This document shows positions 46,195-59,562 of a stretch of 64,000 bases of DNA, piece after piece. The stretch spans positions 1 through 64,000 of the forward strand of contig JAFYHG010000025.1 of assembly GCA_017539265.1 (NCBI GenBank). Reading direction: 5' to 3'. The translations under genes and the position numbers were made by a program. Every line of letters starts with the position of its first letter. The first letter of the stretch is position 1. Below the pieces are notes generated by a model. The model was not told the origin of the DNA and did not search any database. It saw nothing but the letters and a program-made list of their open reading frames with translations. The stretch is from Alphaproteobacteria bacterium (GTDB lineage Bacteria; Pseudomonadota; Alphaproteobacteria; CAAHEQ01; UBA3637).

Positions 46195-47169
46195 TTATCG
46201 TTTTAAATTTGCTATTGAGTCGCATAAAATATCAAAAAAGGCTTGTTTGTTGATATCTCGAATAACATTAACCACTCTTCCTTCGGGTGCTATTAGGCTT
46301 TGTCCCCGAAAATTTTTCAAGTCGATTTTTATGGGAATTTGTTCGATTTTAAAAATGGAGTCATCCACCAAATAACACATGGCAACGGCATCGTGGAGAG
46401 CCCGTATCGGATCGGTAGGTGTTTTTTTAACCGGTGCATAATCCTCCATATCATCCGGTCCGATTGCAGAGAGCATATCTGCAATCATAATAGCCTCTTT
46501 TGTCCCGATTTTCCTGATACGCGTATCTACTTCCCCATTATATAGAACACGCCTGGTAATATCCAATCCGATTAAATTAATTTTTTGGATACTCGAACAT
46601 AAAGTAATATCTGCTGCTTCTGGGTCCATGGCAAAGTTATATTCCGCATATACATCATCCCCATTTACTGAGATATTTCCCATCCGTCCGCGTAACGGCT
46701 CCGGAAAGACACATCCTCCCATGATCGTTATACCGGGAATATTTTCAGAAATTTGTGGCTGTTTTAACAAAGCCTGAGCGATATTTGTTTGTGGGGCTGT
46801 AGCACACAGATGCGGATAATTATTCGCATTAGAATAGGTTTTGATTAAAAAATCAACGGCGTTTTCTTGCGGCACAAAAAATTTGGGAATTTTCCAATTC
46901 TCTGTGCCGGCCATACCAGATTCCCCAAATACGTTTTCCAGTGTTGTCAGATTTTGTTTTAAGGGCCGGTTAGCCCCTCTATAAACTGGGATATCCGTTC
47001 TGCCTGCAAATGTTAAGACTTTCATGGCATTCAGGTAGCATTTGTCCACGGACACATTTCCACCGACGACTGTAATAGCCTTTAAATTAATATCTGCGGA
47101 TCCTAACGCCAATAAAATTGCCAAGGCATCATCTTGGCCGGGGTCGCAATCAAGGATAATATCTTTCAT
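46195..47169 (-). CDS. Inosine-uridine preferring nucleoside hydrolase family protein
   Basis: The 324-residue enzyme starts ILDCDPGQDDALAILLAL, the IunH calcium-binding motif, and has VVGGNVSVDKCYLNA, ITIMGGCV and EYNFAMDPEAADITL. It should split the N-glycosidic bond of nucleosides into base and ribose. The ATG at 47169 follows AGGGGA and lies just after the hisIE stop (1-nt gap), so it belongs to the his operon, an unusual partner. The ribose or purine product could feed the same precursor pool, but that is a guess. Confidence 0.9.
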   Translation of the reverse strand: MKDIILDCDPGQDDALAILLALGSADINLKAITVVGGNVSVDKCYLNAMKVLTFAGRTDIPVYRGANRPLKQNLTTLENVFGESGMAGTENWKIPKFFVPQENAVDFLIKTYSNANNYPHLCATAPQTNIAQALLKQPQISENIPGITIMGGCVFPEPLRGRMGNISVNGDDVYAEYNFAMDPEAADITLCSSIQKINLIGLDITRRVLYNGEVDTRIRKIGTKEAIMIADMLSAIGPDDMEDYAPVKKTPTDPIRALHDAVAMCYLVDDSIFKIEQIPIKIDLKNFRGQSLIAPEGRVVNVIRDINKQAFFDILCDSIANLKR

Positions 47170-47170
47170 T

Positions 47171-47779
47171 TTATTCCCCTTTATTTCTTGTGCGTAAATA
47201 TTTTGATACATCCGTTAGACGAAAACCTTTGGCGTTCAGTAATACCAACAGGTGAAAGATTAAATCCGATGCTTCTCCGATAAAGTTCGGGTCATCCGTT
47301 ACGGCAGCCAAAGCGGTTTCCAGACCTTCTTCTCCGACCTTTTGGGCCATACGCGATAAGCCACGTTCGAAAAGGCGTGCGGTATAACTGACATCCGGAT
47401 TGTCATCTTGTTTCCGCTTTTCAATGACTTCCTCCAAAAGTGGGAGCCATTCCAAGGGCGCATCCGCAAATGCGCCAAAGCAAGATTTTCTGCCCAGATG
47501 ACAGGTCGGTCCCGTTGGAATAACCCGTACCAACAGGGTATCACTATCGCAATCTGTTTCCACTCCGACAAACTTTAAAAAATTGCCCGAAGTTTCCCCC
47601 TTAGTCCACAGGCAGTTCCTTGCCCGACTAAAAAATGTCACCTGACCGGATTTAATCGTTTTTTTAAGGGCTTCCTTATTCATATATCCCAACATCAATA
47701 CTTCCATGGTGCGATTATCTTGAATAATTGCGGGAATAAGACCGTTTCCTTTATTAAAATCGAGTGTTTCTATGTTCAT
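47171..47779 (-). CDS. hisI: Bifunctional phosphoribosyl-AMP cyclohydrolase/phosphoribosyl-ATP pyrophosphatase
   Basis: A 202-residue HisIE fusion. The N-terminal HisI half has NRTMEVLMLGYMNKEAL, TFFSRARNCLWTKGETSGN, DCDSDTLLVRV and GPTCHLGRKSCF (metal cysteines). The C-terminal HisE half (about residues 110-195) has SYTARLFERGLSRMAQKVGEE and EASDLIFHLLVLL. It does steps 2 and 3 of histidine synthesis. It lies 10 nt after hisG. Alphaproteobacteria often have the two functions as separate genes, so the fusion is notable. Confidence 0.93.
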   Translation of the reverse strand: MNIETLDFNKGNGLIPAIIQDNRTMEVLMLGYMNKEALKKTIKSGQVTFFSRARNCLWTKGETSGNFLKFVGVETDCDSDTLLVRVIPTGPTCHLGRKSCFGAFADAPLEWLPLLEEVIEKRKQDDNPDVSYTARLFERGLSRMAQKVGEEGLETALAAVTDDPNFIGEASDLIFHLLVLLNAKGFRLTDVSKYLRTRNKGE

Positions 47780-47789
47780 TGTTTCCTCC

Positions 47790-48446
47790 TTAATTCATTG
47801 TCAAAGCCCGACCGATACGGGCCATTAGGTTGTTGGCAATAGACCTTTTATCATCAGAAATCTGACGATTACTGATCAACACGGCTTCCGAATTCAAAAT
47901 CGGCATAACTTCGGTCAGGTTGTTTTCTTTTAAGGTTGCCCCGCTGGAAACAATATCCACAATCACGTCCGACAGTTTTAGACTCGGTGCAATTTCCACC
48001 GATCCGTTCAGTCGCACAATTTGTGCTGAAAGCCCTTTTCCCCTCAAAAAGTTTTGAACAATCTGCGGATAGGTTGTGGCGATTTTTAGATTATTTAAAT
48101 CATCTAACGTATTAAACCGGACATTCTTGGGAACCGCAATCGAAAGACGACACTTCGATATTCCGAGTTTTGCAAAGATTTCGGCGTTAAAGTTATCGGT
48201 TTCCCCGAATTTTGTTTCTTCAAAGACGTTCAGGCCCACTATCCCGAAATCGCAAACCCCTTGTGATACCAGGGCAGGGATATCGTCATCTCGCACGAAT
48301 AACAGGTCTATCGGCATTTCCGGAACCGTGTAGATAAGTTCTCTTTCTCCCTCATCAAACGAAAGTCCTGAGTTGTTAAATATTTGACGGCAAGATTCGG
48401 TTAATCTGCCTTTTTTTTGTATGGCTAGTCTAATTCTATCAGACAT
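47790..48446 (-). CDS. hisG: ATP phosphoribosyltransferase, short form
   Basis: The 218-residue protein is the short HisG: IRLAIQKKGRLTESC at the start, DLLFVRDDDIPALVSQGVCDFGIVG and IVDIVSSGATLKENNL (phosphoribosyl-pyrophosphate loop). It lacks the C-terminal regulatory domain, so by family knowledge it should need HisZ for activity and histidine feedback; no hisZ is in the window. It catalyses the first step of histidine synthesis. A His-rich leader peptide and a promoter lie upstream (48521-48633). Confidence 0.94.
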   Translation of the reverse strand: MSDRIRLAIQKKGRLTESCRQIFNNSGLSFDEGERELIYTVPEMPIDLLFVRDDDIPALVSQGVCDFGIVGLNVFEETKFGETDNFNAEIFAKLGISKCRLSIAVPKNVRFNTLDDLNNLKIATTYPQIVQNFLRGKGLSAQIVRLNGSVEIAPSLKLSDVIVDIVSSGATLKENNLTEVMPILNSEAVLISNRQISDDKRSIANNLMARIGRALTMN

Positions 48447-48708: not shown

Positions 48709-51700
48709 CTACTTTTTGAACTTATTAATGATTGTGTCCAAAAAGTCGCCTTTCCAAGTAATTTCACCGATTGTATTATTTTCTTTCACATTCTCTGTCC
48801 TGACAAAAACACGTTCGTGTTTTTGATTGGGCTTGGAATAATTGGTATACAGATCCAAATACAGGGTTGTCGGGCCGGAAATACTCTGCCGGTGATCGCC
48901 AAAATTATTTGTCCGAATGGTATATTTACCGTCGGCTGCCCGTCTTAACATAAATTCTTCAGGACCAAAGCCTTGTGTAAAATCATGCGGATAGCGACCG
49001 CCGATTTCGGTCATTTTGTGGCTGTAATAGCATTCTTCGTTATACGGATCAATCACGTGCAGGTCTATATCCGTATTATCTGTACTCCATGCCAGAACAA
49101 TTCGGATATCCACCGGCATATTGAACACAAAGTCCGGATCCATATTTTGGGTATTTACCTCAGGATGTAAAGAGAGCAAATTATTCATTTCGACAAAGAT
49201 AATCTGCTTAATTTCATTAAAGCGGCCCCAATCATTTTCCAAGATATGATAGAATGTATCAAATGCCTTTTGATAATCGCCCTTTGCCTGATAGGCCAAA
49301 GCCAAATCACGGAAAGATTGCGGATCCTCACCGCGCAGTTTTGTTATTTTTTCAAATAACTCTACCGCATAGCCATATTCTTTCATCTGCATTAATTTAT
49401 TGGCCGTAATTCGGATCAATTCCACATTATCCAACTTCATTTCAACAATATTGGATAACACTTTTAATCCTTTACCGTATTGATTGCGGCGAATAAACTC
49501 ATCCGTTATATCAAAGTAGAAAGAGGGCTGATCGCTATACCCTTTCTTTAATTTTAAATAGTCCGCATACAGATCCGCATCTCTTGATGCTTTTAAGATC
49601 TTTAAATACGGCACATCTGGATCCCATTGTTTAATTTGAATGGAATTTCGGGATTGAGAACTGATTCGTTTAGAATTAGAAACAATGGCCCCGTCTGAGT
49701 CGACTCTGCCGATATAATTGGCACTCATATCTGCCTCACCGGAATCAGTTAATGTATCCCTAAATTTAATCCCGCTTGCAGATACAGCATGTCCCTCATC
49801 TGAACTCGATAGTGTATCACCATAACTTGCTCCTACGGAATAATGGGCGTCATTGACTATCCGCCGCCTACCACGGGAACGATGGCCACTGGCTGCTTTT
49901 ATTGATTCATATCTTGATACCGGTTTGGTTTCATATTTCCGTCTCCACCATTCTTTGACACCATTGGCTTGACGCATAGCATCTCGGATAGCGGATGACT
50001 TTTTCGTCTTGATATCATTTTCCTGGTTCCAGGCTAACCGATCATATTCGGCCCGTAATTCTGGCGGTGGTGTAATATGGTATCTGAAATAATCGGATGC
50101 ATTTTCCAAAACCAATAAAGATGTATTTTCCGTTACAACGGAATATTTTTGCCCTAATGCCAATATTTCATCTCTATTCTCATCGGCATTTTGCTCTAAA
50201 TAAGAAATCTTTTGTTGTGCCCACAGCCGTTCTACCGCCGGATTATTTCCTTCGGCCGAAAGGGATATTTTTTGTGTTTGAATAACATGATCTTTATCAT
50301 AACCCAAAGCAATTTTCAGTTCTGTCTTGCGTCCAGCAAAGATACCCGCAACGCTGAGATTTTCGTCGGCAATTGCCCCGATTGGCGGATAAATTTCCGA
50401 TACGTTATTTCCCTTATAGGAAACAACGCGTAAGGGTTGCTTTGTTAATTGTGTCAGTGCTTTTTTGGTGCTGACTTGTGCTAAATTAATAAATGAACCG
50501 AATGTCTTGTTTGCCCATCCTTTTAATGTTCCGGCGGCATATTCCGGCGCCGAATTGATTGTATATACGGGTACATTCGGTAATTTAAATTTCACTTTAT
50601 TTCCGAAAGTATTTAATCCGTCCGTGAATAATAAGATTTCGTCTGCTTTAATTTTTTTCAGATTCAATTTTTCAAAACGGGTTGCGCCATCATAGACAAT
50701 TTTATCAATAGCCGATAAAACAGGGGCGGCATTTCCGTTCCTTACGGAAATATTTTGCGCTTTACCCATTTCGATATCAAACGGAATAAAGGTTACGGAT
50801 ACATTATTTAATTTCTTTAAGTAGGCTTCTAAAAGCTCTTTTTCTTTTTCGATATCCCGTTTTTCTCCGGATAAAGAAGCATCCCAAAGAATAGCCACGT
50901 TTTTCGGATAAGTTTTATTCTTTTCGGATTGCTTTAAATCAACACTGCCGTAGAAATAGGTTCCCCCCGATGTTCTGTGGGTGAAAAACGGATTTTTTTC
51001 TGTTGTCGGGATGCTGAAAGATAAAGTGTTATTTAAATCATAATCTGCCGCATCAAAGTGGGATAGAAATACTTGCCCCGACCGTGTGAAGTGAAAACCA
51101 CGTAAATCGGTTGCAACCTGTGGAGCTCTGTCTGATTCTGTCGGCAGATTGATGTCTAAACTGAAACGTTCTAATCTTTGATTAAAGTTTAATGGCAGAA
51201 CATACCTGAATTGTCCTTTTTCTTTTTGAAGGGGTTCTTCTAAAATAATACGAATTCTTCTTGTCCCGTTCGGCGTGAAGGGGTAAATACGTGTTTTGAA
51301 TTGATTCCCCGCCGTTTTTTCAACCAACAAGGGATCGACACCTTGCCGCACAACGGCTTCAAATGTTTGACGCGCCTTTTCTTTTTCGACGACAACACCT
51401 TCGCGCATTTTTCCGTTAATGTCTAGGGCAATCGCCGCTACGGTCTGATTTTCCGCCAAAGGAAATTCAAATTCGGCCTCCAAAGTTGCCGAATTTGGGT
51501 TATACATAACCATTTCATAGGTTGTGTTGGCAACATTACCGATAATATCCGTTTTAATGGATAAATCCCGAATGGTAATGGGTTGATAATTAGGGCGTAC
51601 GATAATTCTGGGAACAAAGATAACTCTACGACGTGGCATAACCAGACAATCCCCCGAATCGCAATCTATTCTATCTGCTACACCGGAATTTACCCGTAAA

Positions 51701-51786
51701 GGCCGATAGCTTTCCTGTGCATTAACCGAAGCAATCAAAAATAAAACAGATAAAATAGTCGAACAAATAACAATTATTTTTTTCAT
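48709..51786 (-). CDS. Secreted VIT-VWA-TPR-DUF2135 protein (paralogue 1)
   Basis: The ATG at 51786 starts a signal peptide cut near VNAQ (residue 24). A VIT domain follows (about 70-190; TTYEMVMYNPNSATLEAEFEFPL and GNQFKTRIYPFTPNGTRRIRI), then a VWA domain (about 295-440) with an intact metal site DASLS. After a linker with GRVDSDGAIVSN come TPR-like helices (about 760-870) and a DUF2135 domain (about 905-1020; DIDLHVIDPYNEECYYS). VIT-VWA proteins mediate protein contacts outside the cell or in the periplasm. The same architecture occurs at 54593-59562, but this copy has no Cys-rich tail. Confidence 0.88.
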   Translation of the reverse strand: MKKIIVICSTILSVLFLIASVNAQESYRPLRVNSGVADRIDCDSGDCLVMPRRRVIFVPRIIVRPNYQPITIRDLSIKTDIIGNVANTTYEMVMYNPNSATLEAEFEFPLAENQTVAAIALDINGKMREGVVVEKEKARQTFEAVVRQGVDPLLVEKTAGNQFKTRIYPFTPNGTRRIRIILEEPLQKEKGQFRYVLPLNFNQRLERFSLDINLPTESDRAPQVATDLRGFHFTRSGQVFLSHFDAADYDLNNTLSFSIPTTEKNPFFTHRTSGGTYFYGSVDLKQSEKNKTYPKNVAILWDASLSGEKRDIEKEKELLEAYLKKLNNVSVTFIPFDIEMGKAQNISVRNGNAAPVLSAIDKIVYDGATRFEKLNLKKIKADEILLFTDGLNTFGNKVKFKLPNVPVYTINSAPEYAAGTLKGWANKTFGSFINLAQVSTKKALTQLTKQPLRVVSYKGNNVSEIYPPIGAIADENLSVAGIFAGRKTELKIALGYDKDHVIQTQKISLSAEGNNPAVERLWAQQKISYLEQNADENRDEILALGQKYSVVTENTSLLVLENASDYFRYHITPPPELRAEYDRLAWNQENDIKTKKSSAIRDAMRQANGVKEWWRRKYETKPVSRYESIKAASGHRSRGRRRIVNDAHYSVGASYGDTLSSSDEGHAVSASGIKFRDTLTDSGEADMSANYIGRVDSDGAIVSNSKRISSQSRNSIQIKQWDPDVPYLKILKASRDADLYADYLKLKKGYSDQPSFYFDITDEFIRRNQYGKGLKVLSNIVEMKLDNVELIRITANKLMQMKEYGYAVELFEKITKLRGEDPQSFRDLALAYQAKGDYQKAFDTFYHILENDWGRFNEIKQIIFVEMNNLLSLHPEVNTQNMDPDFVFNMPVDIRIVLAWSTDNTDIDLHVIDPYNEECYYSHKMTEIGGRYPHDFTQGFGPEEFMLRRAADGKYTIRTNNFGDHRQSISGPTTLYLDLYTNYSKPNQKHERVFVRTENVKENNTIGEITWKGDFLDTIINKFKK

Positions 51787-51979
51787 AATACACCCCATTT
51801 AAGAATTAATCTGTGGGTATTCTAATATGTATAATTTAAAAATGCAAATAAAAAATAAATCCACTCTGATTATTTTTTAGGTGTGTTTTAAGAACGCTGC
51901 TATTTATGGATTTTATACAGCTTTTAAAGAGAAATTCTATCCTAAATTTCAAGCTATTTAAAAAAATATAAAAAACGTA

Positions 51980-52008
51980 TTGACAAATGAAAAGAAAAGG
52001 CATATAAT
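51980..52008 (+). promoter_or_regulatory. Consensus sigma70 promoter of the Phe-leader operon
   Basis: TTGACA at 51980-51985, a 17-nt spacer and TATAAT at 52003-52008, all consensus. The region 51787-51979 between it and the divergent VIT-VWA gene shows no other feature. Confidence 0.92.
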
Positions 52009-52017
52009 TTCCCTGTT

Positions 52018-52101
52018 ATGACGAAAAGTATTAACTTTTTTGCTTTTGCTTTTAACTCTTTTTGGTTTTGGTTTAATCGAAAAGAGGGCTTTTTGTTGTA
52101 A
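52018..52101 (+). CDS. Phe/Trp-rich leader peptide
   Basis: A 27-codon frame begins with ATG 9 nt after the -10 box, so the transcript should be leaderless. Its core is FFAFAFNSFWFWF: eight Phe and two Trp codons in the whole peptide, like pheA/pheS leaders (PheL). A strong terminator (52133-52162) lies between it and the structural gene. AAAGAG at 52081-52086, in the last codons, can pair with CTCTTT in the terminator 5' arm, a candidate antiterminator. Together these form a classical ribosome-stalling attenuator that would respond to charged tRNA-Phe (and perhaps tRNA-Trp). Confidence 0.85.
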   Translation: MTKSINFFAFAFNSFWFWFNRKEGFLL

Positions 52102-52132
52102 TTAATCCGTCAAATTTTAATAACAGTAAGAG

Positions 52133-52162
52133 GCTCTTTCGTATAGAAAGGGCATTTTTTTT
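52133..52162 (+). terminator. Attenuator (intrinsic terminator) of the Phe-leader operon
   Basis: GCTCTTTC pairs with GAAAGGGC (8 bp, one G-U) around GTATA and is followed by A and eight T. It lies 30 nt before the start of the structural gene. Confidence 0.9.
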
Positions 52163-52192
52163 ATTTTACAGAAAGGAAATATAAGAGTAACA

Positions 52193-53854
52193 ATGTCAGA
52201 CGATATAGATATTTTAAGGGCTTTACCGGTTTTGCAAAAAATATGGAACACACGCACGCTGTCGGATTATTTTAAGGCAACAATTACCCCCTTGGGACAA
52301 ATGGAAGAAGTTCCCGAAAAAAGGATGATGGTTGATGCGATATTCTCGGAAACAGAACGCCTTTATGGTTCGGATACCGCCCAAGGTGTTTGCGCACAAA
52401 TAACAAGTTTTCCTGTGGTGGAAACGGGCACCCATCTGGCTTTCTTACGCGATTATGATACCCCTCTGAAAGACGATTTGCGTTCTCGCCTCAATCAAAA
52501 TGTTCTGATTTCAAGCGCCTTAATGCGTCATTCCGGACAAAAATATCATGTCGGCGTATATGGTAGTAATGTTACCCTAAATCATCCCTGTGGCGGTGGT
52601 TTCTTTCAACTGGGCGATGATATTTTTCCCGTTACACAATTAGGTCAGATCGGCCAAGTCTGCCTGTATGATGCCCCGCGGATGACCGGTAATGCTTTTA
52701 ATGAATCGTTACCGCTGGTTGCAAAATTGAATATGCTGAACACGGTTTTAACGGATGATATTATCAATAAGACTCAGACCCCGCGTAAAGAAATGCTCTT
52801 GAAAACTCGTAAGATTATCAATCAATTATTAACACCGGTCGGCCATGGTAAAGCCAATTACGGCACGGTTCAAAAGCAATACCAATCCCTAAATGTCACG
52901 AATAAAGGTTTTGTGGAATCGGCCTTTCTTACTTTTTCAATGGAAGCCTACAAAAAATACGGCTACACTTTTTCCGATGTCGATAGGCAATATCGGGAAT
53001 TAGCAACTGTGTTTGATCGCAAGGATTTAAAACTACCCGATCAGGTCGCTTTGGTTCAATCCAAGACCATTAATGGGGCTTTGGGCGGGACGGATATCCG
53101 CCATATTTCCGTAGATGCCGTAGAAGTGACTCGAAAATTTTTGATCTCATCACTGGAAAATAAGAATAGTTTATGGTATAAGATTTTCAATAACTCGGAA
53201 AGTTTTAGGAAAATGCATCAATCATTTATTGGTATTAGGGGTAGTTGGAAAGAATCTGAATCTCCCTTTGACTATGTCGTGCGGGATAAAGGTTTCGCTA
53301 AATGCATCTCTCTGCCACTGGAAAAAATTGATCACAAACCGGAAACATTGGTTCCCTTGTTAAGGGAAAAAAAGATTATTCCCTCCAGTGCCCTTATCGT
53401 TTTGATTTTTCAAAGTTCGGGCATTATGGCGCATGGTGGTTTTTTTCAAACCACATATGCGGATAAAATTAAAAAACGTTTTGTCGGACTCTTAACGGAC
53501 ATGGGCGAAACAAAGCGAGCTCAGCAATTGCAACAATTACCGGTAGATATGGCTTTGCTTTCACTGGCTGCCGTGAATGATAAAACCGGAAAACCCATGA
53601 AGTTATCCGAAATTTCGCGTCTACCTGTGAACAAAAGACAAGAATTGATGGATATGATTCCCCAATATCCTTCTTGCCGTGCGGTAACAAATGCTTTGCC
53701 GACCCTGAAACGCTATCTGGATTCAACAGCCCCGGGTTATGTCGCTGGCGAAGCCGCTCAAGCCCCTCAGCCGCGCCTTGTTTGCCATCACCAAAAAGTA
53801 TCGGGTATTTTACCTCAGATGCGGGAAGAAACACATCTTGCGAGGTCTGCATGA
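52193..53854 (+). CDS. Unknown 553-residue protein under a Phe/Trp-leader attenuator
   Basis: No signal peptide or clear membrane helix; it is probably cytoplasmic. Regions that look conserved: ITSFPVVETGTHLAFLRDYD (about residues 64-83), NQNVLISSALMRHSGQKYHVGVYGS, HPCGGGFFQLGDDIFPVTQLG, ALGGTDIRHISVDAVE and SALIVLIFQSSGIMAHGGFF. The Gly-rich and His-containing segments suggest an enzyme, but I recognise no family. It is not PheA, TrpE, AroG or a tRNA synthetase. Control by a Phe leader implies a role in making, saving or using aromatic amino acids. The stop overlaps the next ATG (ATGA at 53851). Confidence 0.8.
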   Translation: MSDDIDILRALPVLQKIWNTRTLSDYFKATITPLGQMEEVPEKRMMVDAIFSETERLYGSDTAQGVCAQITSFPVVETGTHLAFLRDYDTPLKDDLRSRLNQNVLISSALMRHSGQKYHVGVYGSNVTLNHPCGGGFFQLGDDIFPVTQLGQIGQVCLYDAPRMTGNAFNESLPLVAKLNMLNTVLTDDIINKTQTPRKEMLLKTRKIINQLLTPVGHGKANYGTVQKQYQSLNVTNKGFVESAFLTFSMEAYKKYGYTFSDVDRQYRELATVFDRKDLKLPDQVALVQSKTINGALGGTDIRHISVDAVEVTRKFLISSLENKNSLWYKIFNNSESFRKMHQSFIGIRGSWKESESPFDYVVRDKGFAKCISLPLEKIDHKPETLVPLLREKKIIPSSALIVLIFQSSGIMAHGGFFQTTYADKIKKRFVGLLTDMGETKRAQQLQQLPVDMALLSLAAVNDKTGKPMKLSEISRLPVNKRQELMDMIPQYPSCRAVTNALPTLKRYLDSTAPGYVAGEAAQAPQPRLVCHHQKVSGILPQMREETHLARSA

Positions 53855-54465
53855 TTTTAAAACGCATTCAAACCTCATATATTCAGTCAAAACTGATGTA
53901 TGCTACACCTAATAATTCCTTCTATAAGGATATGTATTCTGCCTTTGGATTAACTGAGGCTTTGGTTCATCCTGAACTTTATAATCGTTTAATCCGATTG
54001 GAAAAACAACTGAATGAAAAACAACTGATTTTAGTAATCTATGATGCGTTCAGACCCTTGGCTGTTCAAAAGTTTATGTATGAAACAGCCCCCGATTATA
54101 TCAAACCTTATATTGCTCCGCCGCCTCAGCCTGATTCCAGGCGTGGTTTCCATCCGCGCGGTGTTGCTATTGATTGCTATTTGGCGAATAGGGTAGGGGA
54201 GCCTCTTCCGTTTCCGACATTGCCGGATGCATTTTATCCCGGTTATGAGAAGGACCCGAATTATCCTCAATATTTAAAAAAATGTCACAGGGACTATAAC
54301 AGCCCCGATTTAACCGACGCTCAAAAGGATAATCGTACACTTTTGGAAGACATGATGGCGTCTGTCGGTCTTGAAGGCCTTCCCCACGAATGGTGGCACT
54401 TTAATCTACCGAACGCATGGAAATACCCACTTATTGAATCTTTAAAAGATGTTGAAATTAAATAA
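53851..54465 (+). CDS. VanX/DdpX-like D-Ala-D-Ala dipeptidase family protein
   Basis: The ATG in the ATGA overlap is the natural start. The 204-residue M15-type metallopeptidase has LILVIYDAFRPLAVQ (the arginine of the family's YDAFRP), GFHPRGVAIDCYLA (zinc His and Asp) and GLPHEWWHFNLP (catalytic Glu and zinc His). There is no signal peptide, so it acts in the cytoplasm. VanX enzymes split D-Ala-D-Ala, but relatives cut other dipeptides. With a Phe-responsive leader and no Van genes near, a dipeptide scavenging or processing role seems as likely as a wall role. Confidence 0.85.
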   Translation: MILKRIQTSYIQSKLMYATPNNSFYKDMYSAFGLTEALVHPELYNRLIRLEKQLNEKQLILVIYDAFRPLAVQKFMYETAPDYIKPYIAPPPQPDSRRGFHPRGVAIDCYLANRVGEPLPFPTLPDAFYPGYEKDPNYPQYLKKCHRDYNSPDLTDAQKDNRTLLEDMMASVGLEGLPHEWWHFNLPNAWKYPLIESLKDVEIK

Positions 54466-54592
54466 AAACTTCATCAAGAAAACATTGTCTTGATTGGCCG
54501 ATAAAATCACGCCCTTAATTTCAAAATTCTTGTTGCATTCTCTCGGAAATTACTTTATGATGACGACATCTTGTTTGTCAGGAGGTATTATT

Positions 54593-56455
54593 ATGAAGAA
54601 AATAGTGTTTATTCTTATCGGTTTGATATTAAGTTTATCTGCTGCCGCGCAATGGATGCCGTATATTCGCGTGCCGGAAAAACAAAAGCAAATGGAATTA
54701 AAGAGCTTAAATATTAATGTTCAGGTCATGGGCAATATTGCCACAACGACTTATGACATGGTCTTTTTTAACCCGAATGACAAAACACTGGAAGGCGAAA
54801 TGATTTTTCCGATGTCTCCCAACCAAACGGTTGTAGCGATGGCCTTGGATATTAACGGCAAAATGCGCTCCGCCTCTGCCGTAGATAAAGATGAAGCCCG
54901 TCGTATTTTTGAAGAACAGGTCCGTCGCAATATAGATCCTGCCTTAATTGAAAAAGTGGCCGGAAACCAATATAAAATGCGTATTTATCCCTTTAATCCC
55001 AAAGGGCAACGCCGCATTCAAATTACGACCGAAGAAAACCTAAAGATTCAAAATAATGAAATGCCTCTGTCCATTCCTTTAACATATAATAAAAGATTAG
55101 AGCATTTTGGCTTAACGATTAACGTGGCTCAAGATATTGCCAAGATGCCCAAAATCAAAACAGACTTTGAAAATTTTGAATTTGAAAACAGAAATCAGCA
55201 TTTAACCGCCTCTTTTGAAAAGCAGGATTATTTGTTAGATAATTCGCTGGAATTAACACTTCCGGCCCCTCAAAAAGAGATTATTTATACCGGTAGCGAA
55301 TCGGGCAAAAATTATTTTTATTCAAACATCAATGTTAAAAAAGCCGAAAAAACGAAAGTTCTTCCTAAAAAAATAGCCGTTGTTTGGGATATTTCTTCCT
55401 CCGGCAACGATCGCGATTTGAAAAAGGAAAAAGAATTATTAATTGCTTATTTGAAGAAAATCAAAAATGCGGATGTTGATTTAATTACCTTCAATATTCG
55501 CCAAAATACATCTTCTTCATTTAAGGTAAAGGATGGTAATATGATTACATTATTGCAATCCATTGATGCCCTTCCTTATGATGGGGCAACCCGCTTGGAT
55601 AAGGTTGACTTATCCGCCATTCAGGCAGATGAAATCCTGCTTTTCACGGATGGTGTTGCCACAATCGGGGATAGCGTGATTAAACCGGTTAAGACCCCCG
55701 TTTATGCCATTGTATCTTCGGATAAAGGGGAGTTTTCAATGCTGTCCAATATGGCCAATAAGACATTGGCGCGCCTTATCAATTTGAAAAAATTATCGAT
55801 TGATGCTGCTTTGAAGGAACTTACCCAAAAACCGTTGCGCTTAATTGCCTATAAAACTACATCTGCTCAGGAAATTTACCCGCTCCCCTCGGCCGTGGTG
55901 GGGGAAGATTTCACTTTCACCGGTCGGTATAACGGAAAGTCCGCTGAGGTTGAATTGCAATTCGGTTACGATGAAAAGAATATCACCGAAACGAAAAAGA
56001 TTAAAATCGGCGCTGTGCAAGGCAACACCCTTGTCCCCAGACAGTGGGCCGCCCACAAAGCGCGCGAATTAGAATTAGATGCCAAAAACAATCGGGAAGC
56101 CATTGTGCAACTGGGGAAAGATTTTTCAATTTTAACCGAATATACGTCTTTGTTGGTACTTGATAGTTTGGATGATTACCTGCGCTACAAGGTTGCCCCC
56201 AAAGATCCCGATTTATTGGCAAAGTATAACCGTTATGTATCCTTAAAGGATAAAAAGAGTAAGTATGCCGAAGCAAAAGAGAAACGGCGTGCTATTACGG
56301 ATACATTACGCATGGCCAATCAAATAAAGAAATGGTGGGAAAAAGAATTTAAACAAACCCCGCCCGAAGCACCTATGAACCCTGGGATTTTGAAAAAAAT
56401 CCGGAAGATTTGGACAGACAATATGGCATTCTTGCGGATAAAAATGGAAATATGA
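54593..56455 (+). CDS. VIT-VWA protein, paralogue 2, N-terminal part (frameshifted gene)
   Basis: GGAGG at 54581-54585 fixes the ATG at 54593, which begins a signal peptide cut near SAAAQ. The VIT domain (about residues 35-165; TTYDMVFFNPNDKTLEGEMIFPM, GNQYKMRIYPFNPKGQRRIQI) and VWA domain (about 255-400, metal site DISSS) match paralogue 1 along their length. The frame ends at 56455 after a short out-of-phase tail, while the TPR part continues in the -1 frame from at least 56353. It is the front half of one gene. Confidence 0.85.
   Translation: MKKIVFILIGLILSLSAAAQWMPYIRVPEKQKQMELKSLNINVQVMGNIATTTYDMVFFNPNDKTLEGEMIFPMSPNQTVVAMALDINGKMRSASAVDKDEARRIFEEQVRRNIDPALIEKVAGNQYKMRIYPFNPKGQRRIQITTEENLKIQNNEMPLSIPLTYNKRLEHFGLTINVAQDIAKMPKIKTDFENFEFENRNQHLTASFEKQDYLLDNSLELTLPAPQKEIIYTGSESGKNYFYSNINVKKAEKTKVLPKKIAVVWDISSSGNDRDLKKEKELLIAYLKKIKNADVDLITFNIRQNTSSSFKVKDGNMITLLQSIDALPYDGATRLDKVDLSAIQADEILLFTDGVATIGDSVIKPVKTPVYAIVSSDKGEFSMLSNMANKTLARLINLKKLSIDAALKELTQKPLRLIAYKTTSAQEIYPLPSAVVGEDFTFTGRYNGKSAEVELQFGYDEKNITETKKIKIGAVQGNTLVPRQWAAHKARELELDAKNNREAIVQLGKDFSILTEYTSLLVLDSLDDYLRYKVAPKDPDLLAKYNRYVSLKDKKSKYAEAKEKRRAITDTLRMANQIKKWWEKEFKQTPPEAPMNPGILKKIRKIWTDNMAFLRIKMEI
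56353..56455 (+). other. Frameshift zone within VIT-VWA paralogue 2
   Basis: The upstream frame is open to 56455 and the downstream (-1) frame opens after a TAA at 56350-56352, so the shift must lie between. The -1 frame already reads YEPWDFEKNPEDLDRQYG here, which looks more protein-like than the 0 frame. A run of seven A at 56393-56399 is the only homopolymer in the zone. Confidence 0.75.
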
Positions 56456-59400
56456 TTGGATATATAGCCGATGAAGGAAGAATAGTTAGCGTAGATGGGA
56501 AAGCCATCGGTCGGATTGTTGATGCTAAGAGTAGTACTTACTTGGCAGATCCAGAAAAGGATGAAACATCAAAAAAAGAGGCCAAAATCAAATTAAAAGA
56601 ATGGTCGCCCAATACCCCTTATATTAAGGAATTGCGTAAAGTTAAAGATGTCGATTTATACCGCACCTATTTGATCTTGCGTGATAAGTATCAGGATATG
56701 CCCGCCTTTTACTTTGACGTGGCCGATGAATTTGTCAAACGCAATATGGCTGAAAAAGCCACTTTAATCTTGACCAATTTGCTGGAAATGAAGACTGATA
56801 ATGTGGAACTCTTGCGTGTGGCCGCCCAAAAATTGCAATCTTACGGGCAATATCAAATGGCCGAGATTTTATTCAAAAAAATCGTTGAAATGCGGGCGGA
56901 AGAACCCCAAGGCTATCGTGATTTAGCCCTGCTATACGAGGCCTCAAACCAAAACCAAAAAGCCTTGGATCAATATATGATAATCCTCAGTAAGAAATGG
57001 AATAACTTTAACGATATCAAAAAAGAAGTTTTTGTTGATTTAAACGGCCTTATTGCACGGGATAAAACCCTGAATACAAGGGATGTTAATCCGCATTTGA
57101 TTTTCAATATGCCGATTGATTTGCGGATTACCTTGGGGTGGAGTGCCCGTGATAAAAGCGTCGGGTTAAGCGTTATTGACCCTTATCATCAAGGTGTCTA
57201 CCGGGGTGAAAATAACAGTGGCGCAAAGCACATGCACGCCGGTTGGGGATGGGGTCCGGAAAGTTATATGATTAAAAAGGCAATTGAGGGCAAATATGAT
57301 ATCAAGGCCCACGATTATTATAGTGACAACCGTCAAGGTGTTGTCTTACCCGTTTTCGCCTGGGTTGATGTTTATACCCATTTCGGACAAAAAAATCAAA
57401 AACATGAACGCACCCTTATTCGTATGGATGAGGTTAAAAATCAAGAACTCGGAAGCGTCAGTTTTGAATCCGCTTCTTGCCCAAAAAGAACGCCTGTTCG
57501 GTATATGAACGATTGTGTTTCCTGTAATGATACACGAAAGTTATTTGTGCCCGAAAAACAGTGCGATCTTTGTTCCAATAGAAAAATGTTTGGTGATTTC
57601 TGTATCCAAACCTGCAGTGCGGATAAACCGATGCAAAGTTCTGTCGGAAATTGCTACGAATGCAATAATCAAAAAGCCCTAAGGTTATCCGAAGAAGAAT
57701 GTAAAAAATGCCCCAATCGGGAAATGAAATTCGGCTATTGTGTCTTAAACAGCTATAATTGCACGGATGATAAACCGCTTCGTGAAGGGATCGTAACCTG
57801 TCAATCTTGCGATTATGAAAAATCCATGATTGTTTCGCCCGAAGATTGTGCTAAATGTCCCAATCGGGAAATGATCGGCAAATATTGTGCCTTAAAACAA
57901 TGTCCTAAGGATAAACCTATGCAGGGGAGTAACGGTATATGCTATAACTACGACTGTAATACACTCTCTGCCGATATTATTGCGCCCGAAGATTGTGCCA
58001 AGTGCCCCAATCGGGAAATGAAGGGTAAATATTGTGTCCGTAAATCCTGTTCGGCCGATAAACCCATTCAGGATAAAGCCGGCAGTTGCCATACCTGTGC
58101 TTCGGAATTTTCTATCACAGCGGATAAAGCGGAATGCGATAAATGTGATAACAGGACCATGTATGGTAATCAATGCAAATTGAATTGTTCGGCTGATAAA
58201 GTCCAAGATAAAAACGGGAATTGCTATACCTGTGATGATAATTGGTCTGTGGAAACAACACCGGAAGAATGTGCAAAATGCCCCAATCGTGCGTTTGATG
58301 ACGGCAAATGCGTTAAAAAGACTTGCTCCAATGATAAAAATATTGAAAGCAAAGAAGGCGGTTGCTTTGCCTGTGATTATAAAGGTAGTATTCATACCTA
58401 CCCCGAAGAATGTGCAAAATGTTCCAATCGTTATATGATGAAAGAATTTTGCGTCACCGCTTGTGAAAAGAAAGGCCAAGTCCAGGATACCAACGGTAGA
58501 TGCTATGATTGTGACGTCGATTATCCGATTGATGTGGATGAAAAAACATGTAAAAAGTGTCCCAACAGAGTTTATAAAAACAACCGCTGTATTGCTTCTT
58601 GCCCCAAAGACAAACCTGTCATGGATAAATGGGGAACCTGCCATGCCTGCGATGATGAATATAATTTCTCAACGGACGAAATTGAATGCCAAAAATGTCC
58701 CAATCGGACACAGTATGGGGAATCTTGTAAAATTGCCTGCGATAAATACGAACCCATGCAGGATATAGAAAGAGACGGTCACTGTTATGATTGCGATTAT
58801 GAAGGCGGCATCAGGCTCCCGAAATCCGAATGTGACAAGTGTCCTGATCGGGAAATGGTCGGCGAAGGGTGCTATGAAAAATGCCCCGATTATGCCCCCT
58901 TAATTGCCGAAGACGGGACTTGCTATACCTGTGATATGGAAGAGAATATCCGGCGGAATTACTACCCCATCAGGGATAACAACTCTACCCCCACTGGTAT
59001 CGTCGTAATTGATGATAGAGGGCGTATTATCCGCAGGGAAAGTGAAAGATATCCGATGCAGGCGGTTAAAACAACCGCACAAAGTTGTGCCCAATGTCCC
59101 AACCGCGTTTATCGGAACGGACTGTGTATCAATAAGCCGCCCAAAGGTATCTTTATGGCTGATTTTAAAGAGAAAGAATACTTCTCCTGTTCGGTCGAAG
59201 GAACTCTAATCGTTTCCAAAGAAGAATGTGATAAATGTTCTAACCGGATGATGATTGGTGATGCTTGCGTCATTAAAGAATGCCCTGATAATGCTCCGCT
59301 TCAAACATCAAATGCGGAATGCACTTCTTGCTATAGCCCCGAAATGCTGTCCATTTCCAAAGAACAATGCGACAAGTGTCCTAATCGGGTTATGCACGGA

Positions 59401-59562
59401 CCGTTCTGTACACTGAAACAATGCCCTGATGATTCACCGATGATTGGAAATAACGGCAGCTGTATCTGGTGCGGTACAAAAACTTTGCTCTCCGTTCCGC
59501 CGCAGGAATGCGCCAAGTGCCCGAACCGTGAAATGAATGGTAATTATTGCGTTTTGAAATAA
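56410..59562 (+). CDS. VIT-VWA protein, paralogue 2, C-terminal part with TPR, DUF2135 and Cys-rich repeats
   Basis: The frame has only a TTG (56410) and a later ATG as possible starts, neither with a good ribosome site, and its first part aligns with the middle of paralogue 1. It holds a GYIADEGRIVSVDGKAIG linker, TPR-like helices (about residues 85-200 of this frame), a DUF2135-like domain (about 225-345; SARDKSVGLSVIDPYHQG), and then about 690 residues of cysteine-rich repeats with CxxCPNREMxGxYC. I infer it is the back half of the same secreted protein, about 1.65 kilo-residues in all. Confidence 0.8.
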   Translation: MDRQYGILADKNGNMIGYIADEGRIVSVDGKAIGRIVDAKSSTYLADPEKDETSKKEAKIKLKEWSPNTPYIKELRKVKDVDLYRTYLILRDKYQDMPAFYFDVADEFVKRNMAEKATLILTNLLEMKTDNVELLRVAAQKLQSYGQYQMAEILFKKIVEMRAEEPQGYRDLALLYEASNQNQKALDQYMIILSKKWNNFNDIKKEVFVDLNGLIARDKTLNTRDVNPHLIFNMPIDLRITLGWSARDKSVGLSVIDPYHQGVYRGENNSGAKHMHAGWGWGPESYMIKKAIEGKYDIKAHDYYSDNRQGVVLPVFAWVDVYTHFGQKNQKHERTLIRMDEVKNQELGSVSFESASCPKRTPVRYMNDCVSCNDTRKLFVPEKQCDLCSNRKMFGDFCIQTCSADKPMQSSVGNCYECNNQKALRLSEEECKKCPNREMKFGYCVLNSYNCTDDKPLREGIVTCQSCDYEKSMIVSPEDCAKCPNREMIGKYCALKQCPKDKPMQGSNGICYNYDCNTLSADIIAPEDCAKCPNREMKGKYCVRKSCSADKPIQDKAGSCHTCASEFSITADKAECDKCDNRTMYGNQCKLNCSADKVQDKNGNCYTCDDNWSVETTPEECAKCPNRAFDDGKCVKKTCSNDKNIESKEGGCFACDYKGSIHTYPEECAKCSNRYMMKEFCVTACEKKGQVQDTNGRCYDCDVDYPIDVDEKTCKKCPNRVYKNNRCIASCPKDKPVMDKWGTCHACDDEYNFSTDEIECQKCPNRTQYGESCKIACDKYEPMQDIERDGHCYDCDYEGGIRLPKSECDKCPDREMVGEGCYEKCPDYAPLIAEDGTCYTCDMEENIRRNYYPIRDNNSTPTGIVVIDDRGRIIRRESERYPMQAVKTTAQSCAQCPNRVYRNGLCINKPPKGIFMADFKEKEYFSCSVEGTLIVSKEECDKCSNRMMIGDACVIKECPDNAPLQTSNAECTSCYSPEMLSISKEQCDKCPNRVMHGPFCTLKQCPDDSPMIGNNGSCIWCGTKTLLSVPPQECAKCPNREMNGNYCVLK
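57476..59562 (+). repeat. Fourteen cysteine-rich repeats of about 46-50 residues
   Basis: Each unit has the core C(x2)C(P/S/D)NR(x3-5)C followed by C..DKPMQ...G.CY.C. I count 14 cores, from CDLCSNRKM to CAKCPNREMNGNYC. The pattern resembles the growth-factor-receptor or furin-like cysteine-rich fold, with many disulfides. Between cores 10 and 11 lies an insertion with GIVVIDDRGRIIRRE, similar to the linker near 56460. Confidence 0.85.

Follow-up and report, generated by a model that had tools for sequence, protein, structure and literature searches.

A two-gene operon in the 64-kb stretch of alphaproteobacterial DNA analysed here (64,000 nucleotides, the window) is headed by a short ORF rich in Phe and Trp codons and by competing RNA pairings, and these make up, with a probability that we put at about two in three, a ribosome-mediated transcription attenuator whose operon most likely responds to starvation by salvaging or conserving hydrophobic amino acids that the cell imports. 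The attenuator is well supported in its anatomy and as a conserved unit. Its operon encodes a 553-residue protein with a predicted fold like that of BshC and an M15 dipeptidase, and the features of the locus are collected in the table.

Table. Layout of the leader, RNA switch and operon in the window (positions counted from its first nucleotide)
Feature	Position	Strand	Description
Sigma-70 promoter, TTGACA-17-TATAAT	51980..52008	+	12/12 consensus match; 9 nt from −10 box to leader ATG
Leader ORF, MTKSINFFAFAFNSFWFWFNRKEGFLL followed by a stop	52018..52101	+	27 codons, 8 Phe and 2 Trp; homologous ORFs in 9 genomes
Hairpin 1:2	52056..52086	+	strand 1, Phe/Trp codons; strand 2, AAAGAG region
Antiterminator 2:3	52083..52139	+	52083–52099 with 52123–52139; in silico, ribosome placed at about codon 17
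Intrinsic terminator 3:4, GCUCUUUC/GAAAGGGC with U8	52133..52162	+	8-bp stem 52133–52153, eight T 52155–52162
553-aa protein	52193..53854	+	no sequence family; BshC-like predicted fold
M15 (VanX/DdpX-type) dipeptidase, 204 aa	53851..54465	+	start overlaps stop of 553-aa gene (ATGA)

The perfect sigma70 promoter, the 27-codon frame with eight Phe and two Trp codons and the 8-bp terminator with eight T that the sequence-only reading had described were all found in place, and the attenuator layout that it proposed was borne out in its anatomy and is conserved in nine homologous loci. The promoter is the sole 12/12 match among 25 promoter-like sites in the 50–56 kb region. When the whole window was scanned for a promoter followed by a 12–40-codon ORF and a terminator, a strong promoter was found only here and at a tRNA-Lys gene (24.4 kb), and the aromatic content of the leader ORF (0.37) exceeded twice the value of every other candidate. 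Rfam covariance models, including those of known attenuators and T-boxes, gave no match at the locus at gathering score and only a tRNA in the window. The TTGACA box is common to all nine loci; the −10 box is poor (3–4 of 6 positions) in the three that belong to genus g2. Since the −10 box lies only 7–9 nt from the ATG in 9/9 loci, the leader mRNA is probably leaderless, with its 5′ end at or just before its ATG, in which it would be like the trp attenuator RNA (trpL) of Sinorhizobium meliloti, which starts at its own ATG (PMC7298713). Around the operon stand two paralogue-like VIT-domain proteins encoded on opposite strands (48709–51798 and 54584–59562), with a Cys-rich repeat ORF after the second. 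We also noted by eye, at 46195–48446, a short-form HisG-like gene and a HisI/HisE fusion-like gene and then a nucleoside-hydrolase-like gene, with no further his genes seen nearby.

The short ORF carries its regulatory codons in strand 1 and, in silico, is accompanied by the mutually exclusive 1:2, 2:3 and 3:4 pairings and intrinsic terminator that mark a ribosome-mediated attenuator. The antiterminator that had been suggested from the letters alone (AAAGAG at 52081–52086 with CTCTTT at 52134–52139) was recovered on folding as part of the 2:3 helix, which reached −18.2 kcal/mol with a ribosome stalled at codon 17 (z −2.8 including strand 4, z −4.6 without it). Over the nine loci, region 2:3 without strand 4 gave z-scores of −2.75 to −6.1, and all three pairings recur, with most of their ΔG z-scores between −2.2 and −6.1. 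With the ribosome placed at the leader stop, the free RNA folded into the terminator in 9/9 loci; when it was placed at codon 13 or 17 instead, the antiterminator formed in most, some homologues failing at one or the other position, and its best fold requires a stall near codons 13–17. In a six-sequence alignment, the antiterminator pairs were present in 95% of cells, compared to ~60% when slid, and those of 1:2 and the terminator in 90%, compared to 44–73%. Pairing is preserved and compensatory change is scant: covariation adds little because the changes within stem pairs are nearly all one-sided.

The case against chance rests most strongly on conservation in nine genomes. Of 43 genomes from the same bacterial family, 9, in three genera, have the leader, the switch and both genes together, with a leader ORF of 25–27 codons at the same position in every one of the nine and the dipeptidase gene after that for the 553-aa protein in all homologous loci read. 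Flanks of the operon differ among the window, genomes G022 and G005 and genus g2, so that what is conserved there is the operon together with its leader; the three g2 genomes have a common neighbourhood. In G005, the operon adjoins a permuted tmRNA gene (L007:6263–6603), a possible insertion hotspot. Outside the family, the 553-aa protein was not found among 385 sampled genomes of the class or 398 of the phylum (Pseudomonadota), and it had no match in plasmids, phages or viral contigs.

A covariance model of the switch built from six of the nine loci recovered the other three weakly at the operon leader and more strongly at a second site downstream; a search of the window's own genome gave no convincing further copy (next E 1.2). 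Just downstream of the operon, the three g2 genomes have a second copy of the switch (L008:9256–9904, L018:7250–7828, L019:7490–8069), with its own TTGACA box and terminator and a Phe/Tyr-rich leader (MITKTINFFGFYFYSFYFRK followed by a stop, with FF for FY in G058). This copy precedes a 138–146-aa ORF with a conserved Cys at its end, found only in those three genomes, and the switch therefore also stands before a second gene. The C-terminal Cys of this ORF beside the operon prompted us to consider a PEARL-type ligase, which was dropped since g1 and g3 lack the ORF and the predicted fold of the 553-aa protein resembles BshC. A third leader-like ORF (MFISTIKALKQSKREEYFSRIDV and variants), again with its own TTGACA box and terminator (L008:9920–10130, L018:7836–8040, L019:8076–8285), precedes genes for a GNAT acetyltransferase and an AstE/aspartoacylase-like enzyme.

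The leader of the window had been taken to name phenylalanine, a claim that its homologues do not bear out. In the window the leader block is FFAFAFNSFWFWF, the leader there containing a 7-codon duplication (NFFAFAF then NSFWFWF) visible as a 21/22-nt tandem repeat, and the corresponding blocks are FFAFDFFSFWFW in G064 and FFAFNFSFFWFW in G065, these three leaders having 8–9 Phe codons. The number falls to as few as three elsewhere: the leaders of G022 (LLGFYYTSLWFLF) and G005 (FFGFNYSSLWLLL) are biased to Leu/Phe/Trp, that of G062 (LIIFIFASFGLL) to Leu/Phe/Ile, and those of G028 (FIIIIFTLLFI), G058 (IIMINMFAFLFI) and G057 (FIMIIMISFLFM) to Ile/Met/Phe/Leu. For G028, the aligned +2 frame (YYYYFYSF) lacks a start codon and was rejected in favour of the ATG frame, which stops at the expected place. 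The expectation that aromatic-rich leaders precede homologues of the 553-residue protein thus holds for the leader ORF, present at 9/9 loci, and fails for a constant aromatic bias, Phe (at least three codons) being the sole amino acid in which all nine leaders are rich. What is kept across the leaders is the class, bulky hydrophobic, and the identity of the amino acid drifts. Sensing of Phe only was rejected on this composition. An attenuator specific for Phe and controlling a new step of aromatic amino-acid supply would account for the 8 or 9 Phe codons in the window, G064 and G065 and for the Phe/Tyr-rich second switch in g2, but we consider it quite improbable, given that six of the nine leaders are dominated by Leu or by Ile/Met, that chorismate synthase went undetected in every genome of the family and that the operon, unlike those of the pheA/pheST type, has no gene recognised as making or charging Phe. 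In known attenuators the leader codons usually stay with a single pathway, and the drift of the leaders therefore also counts against the attenuator reading itself.

If the ORF were a U-rich spacer through which termination follows the general speed of translation, its residues would be irrelevant, as might be expected from a T content that is similar at the three codon positions of the block when all loci are pooled, and from the need of a U-rich strand 1 to pair with an A/G-rich strand 2. Over codons 7–18 of twelve leaders, however, F, W, Y, L, I and M occur in frame 110 times versus 94 ± 4.3 in nucleotide shuffles (z 3.6), and F, W and Y 75 times versus 56 ± 4.3 (z 4.4), both z-scores overstating the certainty because the leader rows are related. 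Moreover, hydrophobic residues are retained upstream of strand 1 despite changed nucleotides in their codons, and in the g2 leaders first codon positions turn to A while second positions remain T, which together make the spacer highly improbable. A peptide of 25–27 residues remains inside the ribosome exit tunnel when the stop codon is reached, and a secretion or membrane-insertion monitor of the SecM or MifM type was rejected on this ground. Stalling of the nascent chain by a ribosome-binding drug or metabolite (erm or msrD type), with the operon as a protective response, would be consistent with leader residues conserved as a hydrophobic class rather than as one amino acid and with a VanX-like second gene, and short drug-sensing leaders are known, such as the macrolide-responsive msrD leader (PMC10314930). 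Nevertheless, SFWFWF, SLWLLL and FLFIK have no residue-level stall motif in common, neither gene resembles a ribosome-protection or modification enzyme, and the codons match amino acids whose pathways were undetected here, so that we regard such stalling as unlikely.

Those pathways were assessed from two marker genes, chorismate synthase (aroC) and dihydroxy-acid dehydratase (ilvD), each of which was undetected in 43/43 family genomes and detected in 14/14 controls. Judged from these single markers, the family is probably auxotrophic for Phe, Tyr, Trp, Leu, Ile and Val, and the leader codons would then read imported amino acids. Because both genes went undetected throughout the family, a role in aromatic biosynthesis is unlikely; of the new step in aromatic supply or use that had been proposed for the operon, the biosynthetic form is therefore disfavoured, and salvage or use of imported hydrophobic amino acids is the form that may hold. 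Upstream regions of pheS in relatives had no conserved or obvious Phe leader and hence provide no internal positive control.

The 553-residue protein had been described as unrecognised, and this stands at the level of sequence, where it had no match in Pfam, NCBIfam, PHROGs or PDB sequences; it is not featureless, however, in its predicted structure. AlphaFold models obtained from 4 and 9 sequences (pLDDT 72 and 80) both matched Bacillus subtilis BshC (4wbd), with Z 14.5 and 14.9 over 345 and 351 residues, the next structural matches being tyrosyl-tRNA synthetases (Z 6.6 and 5.8). The PDB entry was reached with a BshC N-terminus used as a probe only, and its own sequence was used afterwards. 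In the match with Z 14.9, the fold of the predicted model is like that of BshC over nearly its whole length (rmsd 4.3, colinear 4–501 on 8–535), but identity is 7% and the gene, unlike that of BshC, is paired with a dipeptidase gene. Pfam PF10079, the BshC family, did not match the protein and was itself undetected in the window's genome and in 398 Pseudomonadota genomes. Comparison of the two profiles with hhalign gave no alignment (probability 0.1, with a BshC profile of only three plasmid-borne sequences), and a plain Foldseek search of the PDB found nothing at E <0.001, BshC being third by E and having by far the highest probability, 0.63. With a Foldseek probability of only 0.63 and an empty profile–profile comparison, we take BshC as a match of fold and not as family membership.

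BshC is the presumed Cys-adding enzyme of bacillithiol synthesis, with GlcN-malate as the acceptor. It combines a Rossmann core bearing connecting-peptide motifs with a coiled-coil domain, and its ligation mechanism is reported as unknown (PMC4360819). Among homologues of the 553-aa protein, the invariant residues cluster in E-GTHLAFLRDYD, KYHxGxYGSNV, HPC and AHGGFFQ, which suggests a putative active enzyme. Placed by eye on the model, TGTHLAF would follow the first Rossmann strand, at the place of GGQQAGL in BshC, and HGGFFQ would fall at that of GPGEIAYW. The protein appears to be of a kind not described before, with a rare predicted fold.

The second gene, which had been read as a VanX-like dipeptidase, indeed encodes a Pfam Peptidase_M15 domain that scores above the cut-off (E 1.8e-12, 47.9 bits versus 27). 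It shares the catalytic features YDAFRP, H-x6-D and EWWH with VanX and DdpX but misses the NCBIfam equivalog cut-offs for both (78.5 versus 176; 26.4 versus 320). Residues H101-x6-D108, E180, H183 and R68 are invariant across four aligned homologues, the alignment with VanX covers the R and ExxH parts, and the set of Zn ligands with the catalytic Glu and Arg is intact in the sequence.

For the sensing of tRNA, the direction of regulation, the leaderless start and the chemistry of the operon, we infer the following course. From the strong promoter, a probably leaderless mRNA would begin at or near the leader ATG. With plentiful charged tRNAs for the bulky hydrophobic residues (Phe and Trp in this leader), the ribosome would reach the leader stop and cover strand 2, allowing 3:4 to terminate transcription; with these scarce, it would stall in strand 1 (about codons 12–19), 2:3 would pair in place of the terminator and transcription would read through into the operon. 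Were the leader not translated, 1:2 and 3:4 would form and transcription would end. The products would be the BshC-fold protein, with its core like that of class I aminoacyl-tRNA synthetases, and the M15 dipeptidase, and salvage might proceed, for example, by hydrolysis of dipeptides or amino-acid conjugates. Shortage of hydrophobic aminoacyl-tRNAs is the best-fitting signal because the codons sit in strand 1 and the pathways were undetected, and we read the operon as a starvation response because the family apparently lacks the chorismate and branched-chain pathways. As such switches turn genes on in shortage, a role in supplying or sparing amino acids is likelier than one in consuming them.

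The switch resembles the enteric pheA, pheST and ilvGMEDA and the alphaproteobacterial trpE(G) (trpL) attenuators in its leader ORF with codons in strand 1, its competing 1:2, 2:3 and 3:4 pairings and its U-run. It differs from them in three respects: the operon has no recognised biosynthetic or charging gene, the aromatic and branched-chain pathways of the host genomes were undetected, and the leader residues drift among Phe, Trp, Leu, Ile, Met and Tyr. A bolder and distinctly tentative extension is that this is a portable attenuator cassette in auxotrophs, in which the bulky hydrophobic sensed is exchangeable and which might drive a dedicated dipeptidase and, alongside it, a new BshC/class I synthetase-like enzyme family with hydrophobic amino acids or conjugates of these as substrates.

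From a leader peptide one can read what an otherwise uncharacterised gene responds to, and here that label is attached to an unannotated enzyme family with a rare fold, in bacteria that apparently cannot make the amino acids spelled out by the leaders. Should the tRNA-sensing model be true, attenuation would have been reused from the control of biosynthesis to the sensing of starvation for imported nutrients, and the series of leaders from Phe/Trp through Leu/Trp to Ile/Met would offer a direct test of drift in attenuator specificity.
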